Source: Leucosporidium creatinivorum
Lineage: Eukaryota > Basidiomycota > Microbotryomycetes > Leucosporidiales > Leucosporidiaceae
Assembly: GCA_001600635.1 (NCBI GenBank)
Contig: BCKL01000041.1
Coordinates: 65,637-129,636, forward strand
Reading direction: 5' to 3'
Length of the DNA stretch: 64,000 bases
In this document: positions 29,531 to 38,212 of the stretch, one piece after another
How positions within the stretch are numbered: the stretch's first letter is position 1
Layout: each line of letters opens with the position of its first letter
Program-made: the position numbers and the translations under genes
Notes under the pieces: generated by a model
What the model was told of the DNA's origin: nothing
The model's database searches: none
The model's input: only the letters and a program-made list of their open reading frames with translations

Positions 29531-33166
<3,636 letters not shown>

Positions 33167-33307
33167 GGGGCGCAAGATGGAGCGGAGAGTAATGTGCTGT
33201 AGTGAAGTTGTACTGCGAGATATAGCGCCCAGGCGTAGGCTGCGCGAGACGAGTATGGCTGAGTCGCGGTTCGGTCGAGATTGGCGGAGTCGAAGCTTGT
33301 TCGACGT
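33167..33307 (-). other. ALA1: candidate non-AUG (ACG) mitochondrial leader of ALA1
   Basis: The 47 codons just upstream of the ALA1 ATG are in frame, contain no stop and read as a mitochondrial presequence: they begin ACG-TCG-AAC-AAG-CTT-CGA at 33307, contain about eleven Arg/Lys against one Asp and no Glu, and are rich in Ser, Leu and Thr (for example [20 protein letters not shown]). Just upstream of the ACG the same frame turns acidic (several Glu codons). The ACG has G at position -3. In S. cerevisiae the single ALA1 gene starts its mitochondrial isoform at in-frame ACG codons upstream of the ATG, and other yeasts use GUG. Use of this ACG here is inferred, not shown. Confidence 0.6.
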
Positions 33308-33387
33308 CTCGGCGCGAAGGCCAGTTCGACTCTTGTGCTCCTTCGCTTCTCGCTCGTTCTCGGTTTCTGACGGTACAGCTACTTAGG

Positions 33388-35712
33388 ATGCGCTCTGTGG
33401 TACTGCCTCTGCTCTGCTTGGCTCCAACACTCGTTCTCGCTTCCTCCTTCGCCCTCTCGCCTCTCGACAAGCCTCGCTCCGCCTTTCTCGAGGACGTGCT
33501 GGAAAGCAACTCGGCGGATCAAAAGTACTGCAAGGTGAGTGGTCTCTACAGCTTCCGAGAATGCTCTCGCTTACCCTGAATACCACCCTACAGCTCAGCG
33601 GCGAGATTCAGGACGCATGTTGCGATTACGCGACGGTCGAGCAGACCAACAACGACCTCTTTGCGGCCCTGCACGACATTGTAGCAACACCTTACTTTCG
33701 CTACCACAAGGTGAGCTCCGTTGCCCGAGCTTCATCGCCATTCCAGCCCTCTCAATCGCTCCCCTTCGCTGCACTTCGTTCTCCGACGTGTCGGCTCGGC
33801 CTTGGTCATCGCTGACACGACAATTTTCGATTCTCTCAGGTTGATCTATTCCGAGAATGTCCTTTCTGGCAAGAGGACGGTAGCTGCATGAACCGAGCTT
33901 GCAGCGTCGAGACGACCGAGGAGGTGAGTGGCGCTCGCTTAAGTCGCGTTCCCGCGTCATGCCACTGACATCTCACCTCTTATTTCGCGTAGGAGCACAT
34001 CCCCGAAGCATGGCGATCACAAGCTCTCGGCAAGCTGAAGCACACCAAGGCCTCCCTCGTACGTTTGACTGCTTCTCGGAGTCCAGCTCGGCGCTCACGA
34101 CCTTGTCCATTCACAGACCAACGAGCCTTCAGACGATGCCTGCACCATCAGCGATAGCGATTTTTGCGTTCTCGAGGATGAGGCAGATTCAGGTAGGTCT
34201 GCCTACCCCCCTTCCTCGCCAGCTGAGCTCACCTCCTTCCCTCACCTTCGCAGAGGGCGTCTACGTCGACCTCCTCGAAAATCCCGAACGCTTCACCGGC
34301 TACGCAGGCCAATCCTCCTCTCGTGTATGGAAAGCCATCTACGAGGAGAACTGCTTCGCCCCCGTGCCCTACATCGACCCATCTCGCTCGACCTCGGAGG
34401 GAGGAACTGGCTTCGCTCCCCTCAATGGCTTTGGCATGTCGAGCCTGCCTAGCCCACCAGGAGGAAGCGGATGGGGCGATAGTGAGAAGAAGCTCATTGG
34501 GAGCTTGGCGGGACCCAAGGATGGAGGGGATGAGATCTGCCTCGAGAAGCGTGTGTTCTACCGCGTCATCTCTGGTGAGTCTTCTCATACCTAATTCGAA
34601 GCCGTCAGCTCACCTCTTGTGACATTTGTAGGACTCCATGCTTCCATCTCGATCCACATCTGCGACGACTACCTCGACCAGCAGACGGGAGAATGGGTGA
34701 GCTCCTCGCCGAACACTGCTCAGCGATCATAATACTAACTCTGACCCTCTTCGTTAGGCCCCCAACCTCCAATGCTTCATCACTCGCATCGGACAGCACC
34801 CCGAGCGCCTCCAAAACGTCTACTTCACCTACGTCCTCCTCCTGCGCGCCCTCTCCAAATCCGGTCCTCAACTCCTTCGCACCCTTCAAGACACCTCGAG
34901 CGAGGCTGCCACTATCAAGAAGCTCAGCACGCTCGTCGATGTAGCCACTGGCTGCCCTAGCACCTTTGACGAAACGAGCATGTTCTCAGGTCCTTCCGCC
35001 GAGGTTCGTCTTCCAAACTCCTTGCCTCGACGTCGAGTCCGACGCTAACGCTCTCCACCTGTCCCAGATCCTCAAGACCGAGTTCAAGGAGCACTTCCGC
35101 AACGTCTCTCGCATCATGGACTGCGTCGGCTGCGACAAATGCCGCCTCTGGGGCAAGATGCAAGTCACTGGCCTCGGGACGGCGCTCAAGCTTCTCTTCT
35201 CCTACGATGGCGAGTCGGCCCTCCCCCTTCCTTCCTCCGGAGCAGTGGATAAGGATGACCCCTCCGCTATCGTCCTATCCCGGAGCGAGGTCGTCGCCTT
35301 CGTCAATACCCTGCATCGCCTCTCCGAGTCGCTCGCGGCGGTCGACAAGTTCCGCCTTCTGTGGGCGCACAGGAACGATAAGCGGGATCGCGAGAAGCAG
35401 GAGCAGAAGCTGGAGACGACATCAGCTGGAAAGGCCGCCCCGCCGCCGAAGGAGGAGTCTACTAGCGCCGCCAAGTCCAAGCCGAGCAGCGTGAGGCAGG
35501 CAGCAGCCGTCAAGGAGTCGGTGCACGCCGAGTTGGAGGATCGGGGACGCGTCTCAGCTGCTGTGCCGATACCTACGCCAGCAAGCAACAGCTCGCGAGG
35601 CTCGTGGGAGGATGGAAGGAAGGGCGTGCTCGAGCGGTTGGTAGACTATTGCCGAGAGGGGTGGGCGGTTTGTGTAGAAAAGACGGGGAGGTATCTTAAG
35701 ACCGAGTTGTAA
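33388..35712 (+). CDS. ERO1: ERO1 endoplasmic reticulum oxidoreductin
   Basis: FAD-dependent thiol oxidase of the ER lumen that re-oxidises protein disulfide isomerase and hands electrons to oxygen. Nine exons: 33388-33534, 33594-33710, 33840-33923, 33993-34058, 34117-34192, 34254-34574, 34632-34696, 34758-35003, 35068-35712; 588 residues. A signal peptide opens the protein ([20 protein letters not shown]). The shuttle Cys pair region is [21 protein letters not shown]-binding landmarks are [36 protein letters not shown] and the active-site CxxCxxC in [13 protein letters not shown]. The C-terminal extension is low-complexity with a final amphipathic stretch and ends in KTEL, a K/HDEL-like retrieval signal. 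Faces ALA1 divergently with 221 bases between starts. Confidence 0.97.
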
Positions 35713-35896: not shown

Positions 35897-38212
35897 TTAT
35901 ACAAGCCATGGGCCGACGGTGGGTGCAGCCGCGCTCGAGCTCAGCAGCTTTTGGTGGACGAGGTTGAGCGCCTTGACGGCGTCGCGCCCGTCAATGACGG
36001 AGGAGATGTTGATCTCGGAAGCTCCCTGCGAGATCATCTCGATGTTGATGTTGCCCTCGGCGAGAGTGCTGTAGAGGAAGGAGGGAGGTGAGCTTGCCGG
36101 GCGAAGACGACGAGTAAAATCGAGAGGCTCACCTGAACATCTTGCCGGCGATTCCGACCATATTCTTCATATGCTTGCCGACCAGGGAAAGGATGCACAT
36201 GTCGCGGTTGATGGAGACCTGGAGACGCAGGAGGGTCAGCTTCGACTCGGCGAAGAAGCGCTTCGAAGACTCACCTCTCCGACAATCTGGAGCTCCTTGG
36301 TCATGCGATCCATCACAGGACCGCGAATGTCACCGTTGATGGCCATACTGACGTGAACCTCGGAAGTAGAGATGAGGTCGACGATGACTCCATAACGGTC
36401 GAGGGTGCCAAAGATGCGAGCGAAGAAGCCGTGCGAGATGGTCTTGCGGTTGGAGCGGATGGAGAGGACGAGGATATTATCCTTGATGGTGATGGCCGTG
36501 GGGCCTCGTCGCAGCTGCTGCTCCGAGATGCTGTTGGCGCGCGACGGTGACCGTGAGAGCTCCTCCGCCGAGCCTTGCGCCTCGCTCTCCTCGGTCACAG
36601 GGTCGGGGAAGATGATGGTGCCGACGCCAGAGGGGTTCTCTACGTTCTTGATGCGGATGGGGATGGACGCGCGGATGACTTGCTCCATGGTGAAGGGGTG
36701 GATGACCTCTGAGCCGTAGTAGGTGAGCTCAGCGGCCTCTTCGGGGGTGATGGTCGACAGCAGGCGAGCGGTGGGGACCTTGCGAGGGTCGGCGGTGAAG
36801 ATTCCGTCGACCTCCTTCCAGACCTGCAGCTCCGAGGCTGCGAGGCCGACGGCGCAGAGGGCGGCGCAGAGATCGCTGTAGCCGCGACCGACTTGCGCTA
36901 ACAGCGAGCCGGGAACGACTCCGAAGAAGCCTGAAGGAGTCGAAGTCAGCTTCTTCCCTGATCGGCGGAACAGGTCCGAACTCACCAGTAACGACGGGAA
37001 CTCGGTCATCACACTCGTTTAAGCGCTCGCCGAGTCGCTTCGAGAGACGGTCGTAGAAGGGTTGGCCAAGTTGTCGCTGTCCATCGGCACTCCTCGTCTC
37101 ATCGTCGTCCGCTGCCGACTCGACGATATTCTCCAGCGAGACGAGCTCGGCTTCGACGCCCTGTTGGAGGAAGTCTAGGTCAGCGCGAGCTCTGCAGCGT
37201 CCGAGATCGAAGCTCAAACTCACTCGGTCCTTCAACACTGCTACCACAATGCGGCACGAAAGCCTCTCTCCAACACCGATGATGATGTCCTTTGACCGAG
37301 TCGAGATCTCGTCGATGATCTGAAGGGGAAGCGAGTTGGTTAGCTTGCTGCACGGTGTTACGATGTACTCCTATCAACGCACCTGCGCCGCCAACAGGAA
37401 ACTTCTCAACCGCTCGCAATCATACTCGAGGTCGTCCTCGAGCTCTCGGAGGAGCGCCTCGTCGCGCACAACAGCCCTTGCGGCCTTGAAGTGATCATCC
37501 CGGATCTGATCCACAGTAGCGTTGAACAATTGCGGTCCCTCCTCCGACATTCTCAAGCTGGAAAAGCTTCCCGCCAAACTGCTAGCACCTCGCACGCTCG
37601 GCGTTGAGGCGCCCGACCGACTCGAGCTGCTGGCTGCCTGGGGTTGCGCACCATTCGTGGCGGACTTTTGGAATATCTGGGAGGTGAGAGGGTTGATCCT
37701 CTCGGAGGTGGAAGCGCCGGGGGTGCCAGCTGGGGAAGGAGCGATGCTGGGCATGGAGGAGGAGAGGTCGGGAGCTCGGGGCCGGAGGGCTTCCAAGGCG
37801 GCGCGGAGGAGGAGGTTGGTCGTTCCCGTGGATTTGGACTCGCCTGACCTGGCCGAGCAGACGACGGCGACGCGGTTGCCTGATTCAATGTAGGACCTGC
37901 GAAGCGCCAGAGTACGCAAAGGGCCGCGGTTGTCAGCTCTCGTCTCGAATAGCTCGGGAGCGAGTCCAGCTGGCCCTTTAGCTACTTACGGGATGATCTC
38001 CGATGCGATGGATCCGAGGAACTTGCCCAAACTGGTTCCACCGTACTTTTGGACAATCTATCGCGCGAGAGAAGAGTCAAGGAGATCAGCTCGTCGTTCT
38101 CCCTCGGTTCTGCGGTCCTGCAAGCCTGCAGAACCCGTATCAGCAGCTACAATGAGCTCTTGTTACTCACCCATGGCCGACCTGGCGGGTTGGAGACGAC
38201 GGGAGCTGACAT
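35897..38212 (-). CDS. HOM3: aspartate kinase
   Basis: Phosphorylates aspartate, the first step to threonine and methionine in fungi. Eight exons: 38171-38212, 37990-38057, 37383-37896, 37224-37319, 36986-37160, 36275-36930, 36133-36218, 35897-36068; 602 residues. The kinase domain opens IVQKYGGTSLGKFLGSIASE (KYGGTS motif) and continues NRVAVVCSARSGESKSTGTT, GVGERLSCRIVVAVLKD, GFFGVVPGSLLAQVGRGYSD, VWKEVDGIFTADPRKVP and EEAAELTYYGSEVIHPF. Two C-terminal ACT domains (AITIKDNILVLSIRSNR; MCILSLVGKHMKNMVGIAGK) predict feedback control by threonine, as in yeast Hom3. A Ser/Pro-rich insertion of about 80 residues in exon 3 is unusual compared with yeast (527 residues). The gene ends 185 bases from the convergent ERO1 stop. 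Confidence 0.97.

Follow-up and report, generated by a model that had tools for sequence, protein, structure and literature searches.

In Saccharomyces cerevisiae, a single gene for alanyl-tRNA synthetase (AlaRS), ALA1, serves both the cytosol, from an ATG, and the mitochondria, from in-frame ACG codons upstream of it; a previous sequence-only reading of the DNA studied here had pointed to this arrangement, and PMC2909995 bears it out, giving ACG(-25)/ACG(-24) as the mitochondrial starts and putting the activity of ACG, CTG, TTG, and ATT in this yeast at about 50% of that of ATG. According to PMC7049704, AlaRS is of the DualNCC type, dual-localized by way of a near-cognate start, in S. pombe, S. 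cerevisiae, and C. albicans and of the DualAUG type in N. crassa and in the basidiomycete Cryptococcus (CNAG_05722), and weak AUGs and near-cognate codons have been swapped multiple times in the evolution of aminoacyl-tRNA synthetases (aaRSs). The same source describes Cryptococcus aaRSs whose upstream AUGs have U at -3, AlaRS transcripts of which some start between the two start codons, and near-cognate starts for Cryptococcus LeuRS (ACG-AUU) and ArgRS (AUU), with ribosome occupancy from the earliest start. A near-cognate start of a targeting extension is also described in the basidiomycete Ustilago maydis, where initiation of pgd1 takes place at a tandem AGG AUU (PMC7214817). A literature search by title and abstract opening, with subscription journals mostly outside its reach, found no near-cognate AlaRS start in a basidiomycete.

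Here, we analyze a 64,000-nucleotide stretch of the Leucosporidium creatinivorum genome (the window), which carries ALA1 on its minus strand. A spliced 795-residue part of the protein, assembled from nine exons and part of a tenth, matches the TIGR00344 (alaS) profile with E = 2.3e-263, and the nine introns between the traced exons measure 56–85 nt each, in a genome with short, frequent introns and a GC content of 60%, features that suit a basidiomycete without proving one. The divergent gene on the plus strand, which we take to be ERO1 on the strength of the sequence-only reading, has its ATG at 33388, confirming the 221 bases that had been counted between the two ATGs. Elsewhere in the window (36236–37985, minus strand), ORF pieces resembling fungal aspartokinase were recognized by eye.

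The reading that prompted this analysis had proposed that the 47 codons in front of the ALA1 ATG form a mitochondrial leader that has as its first codon an ACG preceded by G at -3 and is rich in Arg, Ser, Leu, and Thr and almost free of acidic residues. Its coordinates prove exact (Table 1), and both the ACG context and the composition are as described: the leader contains 10 Lys/Arg and one Asp (net charge +9), as compared with net charges of +2 and +1 when these bases are read in the two alternative sense frames, and its maximal 18-residue amphipathic moment is 0.51. T is found at +4 of the ACG. The frame remains open for another 25 codons 5′ of the ACG, as far as the in-frame TAA; this stretch had been called acidic and is in fact mixed, with six Glu and five Lys/Arg. 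The locus thus resembles S. cerevisiae ALA1 in having one AlaRS gene with an upstream in-frame ACG and an ATG, and differs from it in that the inferred start is one ACG at -47 rather than two at -25/-24 (PMC2909995). It likewise resembles Cryptococcus AlaRS, a single gene with a presequence ahead of the second start, but the Cryptococcus presequence is read from a weak-context AUG (PMC7049704) and there is no ATG in or near the leader studied here.

Table 1. Features of the ALA1 region (positions in the window) and of the four further ATG-lacking aaRS loci (contig positions)
Feature	Position	Strand	Remarks
ALA1 exon 1 (coding from ATG)	33009..33166	minus	
ALA1 exons 2-5	32923-32808, 32751-32669, 32609-32420, 32355-32246	minus	
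ALA1 exons 6-9	32178-31744, 31683-31281, 31215-30926, 30867-30473	minus	
ALA1 exon 10, part traced	begins 30411	minus	
Cytosolic AlaRS ATG	33164..33166	minus	context CGCCCCATGT, C at -3
ALA1 leader, predicted mitochondrial presequence	33167..33307	minus	47 codons, in frame, ATG-free
Proposed mitochondrial start ACG, codon -47	33305..33307	minus	context GCCGAGACGT, G at -3; use inferred
Alternative near-cognate ATA, codon -30	33254..33256	minus	G at -3
Alternative near-cognate CTG, codon -22, within leader	33230..33232	minus	C at -3, G at +4
In-frame TAA	33383..33385	minus	limits any unspliced ALA1 extension to 72 codons
Region common to ALA1 and divergent ERO1	33167..33387		221 bases
GlyRS (L020)	C1:1650000-1654500	minus	37-codon ATG-free basic leader, ATT-CTG-CTG (-37 to -35), before MAAPISSEVNK
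ValRS (L021)	C3:625500-629500	minus	ATG-free leader, ACG-ACG-CTG (-41 to -39)
ArgRS (L044)	C1 about 10.3-13.5 kb	plus	leader begins ACG-ACG-ACG-GTG (-49 to -46)
LeuRS (L054)	C18 about 390.9-394.5 kb	minus	ATT-ACG (-33, -32), two codons past in-frame stop

No ATG is present in any frame on the minus strand between 33167 and 33615, and the weak upstream in-frame ATG that marks the DualAUG type is accordingly absent; the first minus-strand ATG upstream of the leader lies at 33618–33616, within ERO1. The number of ATGs upstream is itself uninformative: dinucleotide shuffles lead one to expect 0.69 per 250 nt, and none is present over that length. A conventional presequence could still arise if an upstream ATG were spliced onto the leader, and minus-strand ATGs at 33618 and 33679, together with one donor-like site at 33574 that equals the weakest donor of ALA1 in strength, would provide the parts. 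Such a transcript would, however, have to start at least 230 bases inside ERO1, the intron skipping the TAA at 33385 would be ∼195 nt or longer as compared with 56–85 nt for the nine ALA1 introns, and there is no CTRAY branch motif between 33450 and 33167, which makes a spliced ATG highly improbable.

How far the leader departs from chance was gauged with 5000 dinucleotide shuffles, scored for openness, charge, and amphipathic moment. Openness is weak evidence, since both other minus-strand frames across the leader are likewise open and 1863 of the 5000 shuffles (37%) stay open; 123 are open with a charge equal to or better than that of the leader, and 38 (0.76%) match it jointly on openness, charge, and moment. 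As a genomic control, we used 234 kb of DNA, made up of the window and 17 further 10-kb stretches (1087 N included). Codon use marks 69 of its 177 ORFs of 150 or more codons as gene-like, and 42 of these are preceded by 30 or more open codons that include no ATG. Among these 42, which are mechanical ORF starts rather than curated genes, three equal the last 35 codons of the leader in charge and one does so in both charge and moment. The coding codon bias of the leader is nil (-0.03 per codon; 0.06 in the +2 frame), which is uninformative because the four ATG-started aaRS leaders of the same genome also show none (-0.08 to 0.07). For the AlaRS leader alone, the evidence against chance is therefore suggestive, not overwhelming.

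The open neighboring frames, the three control ORFs of equal charge, and the lack of coding bias are what one would see if the leader were ordinary untranslated sequence, basic by chance, with mitochondrial AlaRS activity supplied by some other route. Against this stand the low joint shuffle frequency, the lack of a second synthetase gene in our searches, and the finding, described below, of a basic, nearly acid-free extension at all five aaRS loci without a leader ATG, and we regard an untranslated leader as improbable, though less so than a spliced one. A genome search for a second AlaRS gene, proposed in the sequence-only reading, was carried out with the PF01411 and TIGR00344 profiles and found none. 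All seven PF01411 matches and eight of the ten TIGR00344 matches fall within ALA1; the other two are weak (E = 2.7e-6 and 3.0e-5), lie on contig C9 (518088–519078), and cover only late profile positions (655–774 and 489–562 of 847), so that they perhaps represent an AlaX-like trans-editing protein. Both profile searches thus give one synthetase gene as far as the assembly reaches, and the second gene that the earlier reading had named as speaking against it was not seen there.

Searches for a mitochondrial contig bearing tRNA-Ala, with COX1 as marker, gave no COX1 match in the assembly. Likewise, no fungal relative in which conservation of the leader frame could be followed was found in viral_contigs (queried with an AlaRS exon) or in genome_contigs (queried with the leader plus exon 1). 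The latter scan returned three loci, two of them from Bradyrhizobium and matching the AlaRS part only (residues 64–100), not the leader. The third (L058) was rejected as a leader relative, being another protein with which QWGTWPAQK is shared by chance; its matching frame reads like what is presumably a CobA/HemD-type fusion protein.

To place the AlaRS leader among other synthetases of the genome, we inspected AlaRS and eight of the families that, like ProRS and TrpRS, are single-locus in Cryptococcus (PMC7049704); the nine aaRSs named below make up the whole set. At all nine loci, a basic leader with zero or one acidic residue lies right before the cytosolic ATG. Four leaders, those of HisRS (MLRALSRPLLSSTRRLYSS), CysRS, LysRS, and ThrRS (L022, L047, L051, and L055), start with an ATG, which in every case has T at -3 and C at +4; T is found at -3 of the ATG in 15 of the 69 gene-like ORFs. 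The other five (AlaRS, GlyRS, ValRS, ArgRS, and LeuRS) lack a leader ATG and have near-cognate codons 33–49 codons upstream, which lie side by side in every leader except that of AlaRS, with further near-cognates within the leaders. LeuRS and ArgRS, which have near-cognate starts in Cryptococcus, are thus among the enzymes with ATG-lacking leaders here (ATT-ACG and ACG-ACG-ACG-GTG, respectively); the Cryptococcus starts are backed by ribosome profiling and concern enzymes other than AlaRS (PMC7049704). The searches behind this set scored 5 of 19 candidates for ValRS and 6 of 9 for LeuRS. Weak extra matches were seen on C1 (ValRS, LeuRS), C22 (HisRS), C6 (ThrRS), and C22, C3, and C8 (LysRS). 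A bacterial-type LeuRS is not evident in the genome: its profile gives seven weak matches, the best with E = 1.3e-7, of which two belong to the ValRS gene, another two fall on C1, and the remaining three share a 2.3-kb stretch of C4.

The five extensions are not equally well delimited. In-frame stops 73, 55, and 36 codons upstream bound those of AlaRS, ValRS, and LeuRS, respectively, and GlyRS and ArgRS may have an ATG-started long form, since in-frame ATGs occur farther upstream (at -158 and -179 in GlyRS and at -91 and -110 in ArgRS). The basic stretch of ValRS extends upstream past the near-cognate cluster to the stop, its edge in GlyRS is not sharp, and a shift of the GlyRS leader by one base gives an equal net charge with one acidic residue. 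The joint shuffle counts for openness, charge, and moment are 351 (GlyRS), 252 (ValRS), 21 (ArgRS), and 46 (LeuRS) of 5000, and the numbers of the 42 control ORFs that match on charge are one, one, one, and six in the same order. The ATG-lacking leaders are persuasive as a set more than individually.

We also counted runs of near-cognate codons (CTG, GTG, TTG, ACG, ATT, ATA, and ATC). In a comparison made after the data had been seen, three of the five ATG-lacking extensions contain a run of at least three such codons, as compared with none of the 42 controls; a run of at least two is present in all five extensions and in nine controls. The sole run in AlaRS, ATC-TTG at -4/-3, is away from the proposed ACG start, and for this reason, as well as the post hoc nature of the comparison, the runs are a lead only. 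The cytosolic ATGs differ as well: position -3 is C at the first ATGs of AlaRS, ValRS, and LeuRS and A in GlyRS and ArgRS (in ValRS, a second ATG with A at -3 directly follows the first), and it is A or G in all four genes whose leader starts with an ATG. In this small sample, the pattern would be in keeping with the second start having less need to be strong where the first is a near-cognate.

The anatomy of the leader, the absence of a second gene from our searches, and the comparable arrangement of four further aaRS genes together support a non-ATG leader in ALA1. It is probably a real, functional mitochondrial leader of the known DualNCC kind, and we consider it likely that mitochondrial AlaRS is made by non-ATG initiation somewhere within it and cytosolic AlaRS from the ATG. 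A single ALA1 transcript, with its 5′ end presumably upstream of the leader, would be translated from two sites: the majority of scanning ribosomes would bypass an inefficient near-cognate, most likely ACG(-47), and start at the ATG, yielding the cytosolic enzyme, while a minority would start at the near-cognate and make AlaRS with a presequence of up to 47 residues. The extended protein would then be imported into mitochondria, where its presequence would presumably be cleaved and tRNA-Ala charged.

As the mitochondrial start itself, ACG(-47) is our best guess. That it has T at +4 and is single, as compared with the adjacent near-cognates of the four sister leaders, counts against it, and initiation could instead be real but take place chiefly at ATA(-30), CTG(-22), or ATA(-19), perhaps on a shorter transcript, with the ACG incidental. 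Several in-frame near-cognates 3′ of the ACG would still give net-positive leaders, and in S. cerevisiae ALA1, TTG(-16) is described as remedial once ACG(-25) is changed (PMC2909995). The interval between the ACG and the ERO1 ATG is just 80 bases long, which makes it quite possible that transcription begins downstream of 33307, and some or all ALA1 transcripts could start within the leader. On the other hand, the ACG is the sole in-frame near-cognate upstream of -30 besides AAG, it has a purine at -3 where CTG(-22) has C, it is located where the mixed-charge stretch turns basic, and ACG and CTG reach ∼50% of the activity of ATG in yeast as compared with ∼20% for ATA (PMC2909995). We therefore hold a later start to be fairly unlikely, its share being counted within the likelihood given above to non-ATG initiation at any codon of the leader.

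The sequence-only reading had argued that independent use of ACG in a basidiomycete would show non-AUG dual targeting of AlaRS to be either very old or repeatedly evolved. The published distribution, with the DualAUG type of AlaRS in Cryptococcus and N. crassa and the DualNCC type in three yeasts of the ascomycetes (PMC7049704), favors repeated switching over great age. The AlaRS case, as we read it, fits the published view of repeated start switching, and the arrangement itself is already known. The predicted mitochondrial destination of the AlaRS leader sets it apart from U. maydis pgd1, whose signal is peroxisomal (PMC7214817).

A more interesting lead than the AlaRS leader is the split within one genome between leader ATGs with T at -3 and clusters of near-cognates. 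Tentatively, and at somewhat less than even weight, most dual-targeted aaRSs of this lineage may have moved from weak AUGs to near-cognates, often in adjacent runs, with the AlaRS ACG as one case of a device used across the genome; on the same reading, there would be two parallel codes for low-efficiency mitochondrial starts, one consisting of an AUG that has U at -3 and the other of near-cognates in clusters. If non-ATG initiation in ALA1 is real, AlaRS would have switched between weak AUG and near-cognate starts inside the basidiomycetes as well as inside the ascomycetes, and the mitochondrial N termini of up to five aaRSs of this genome would be missed by ATG-based annotation. The nine aaRS loci, of which five lack a leader ATG and four have one with T at -3, would then constitute a natural experiment in the encoding of low-level initiation.
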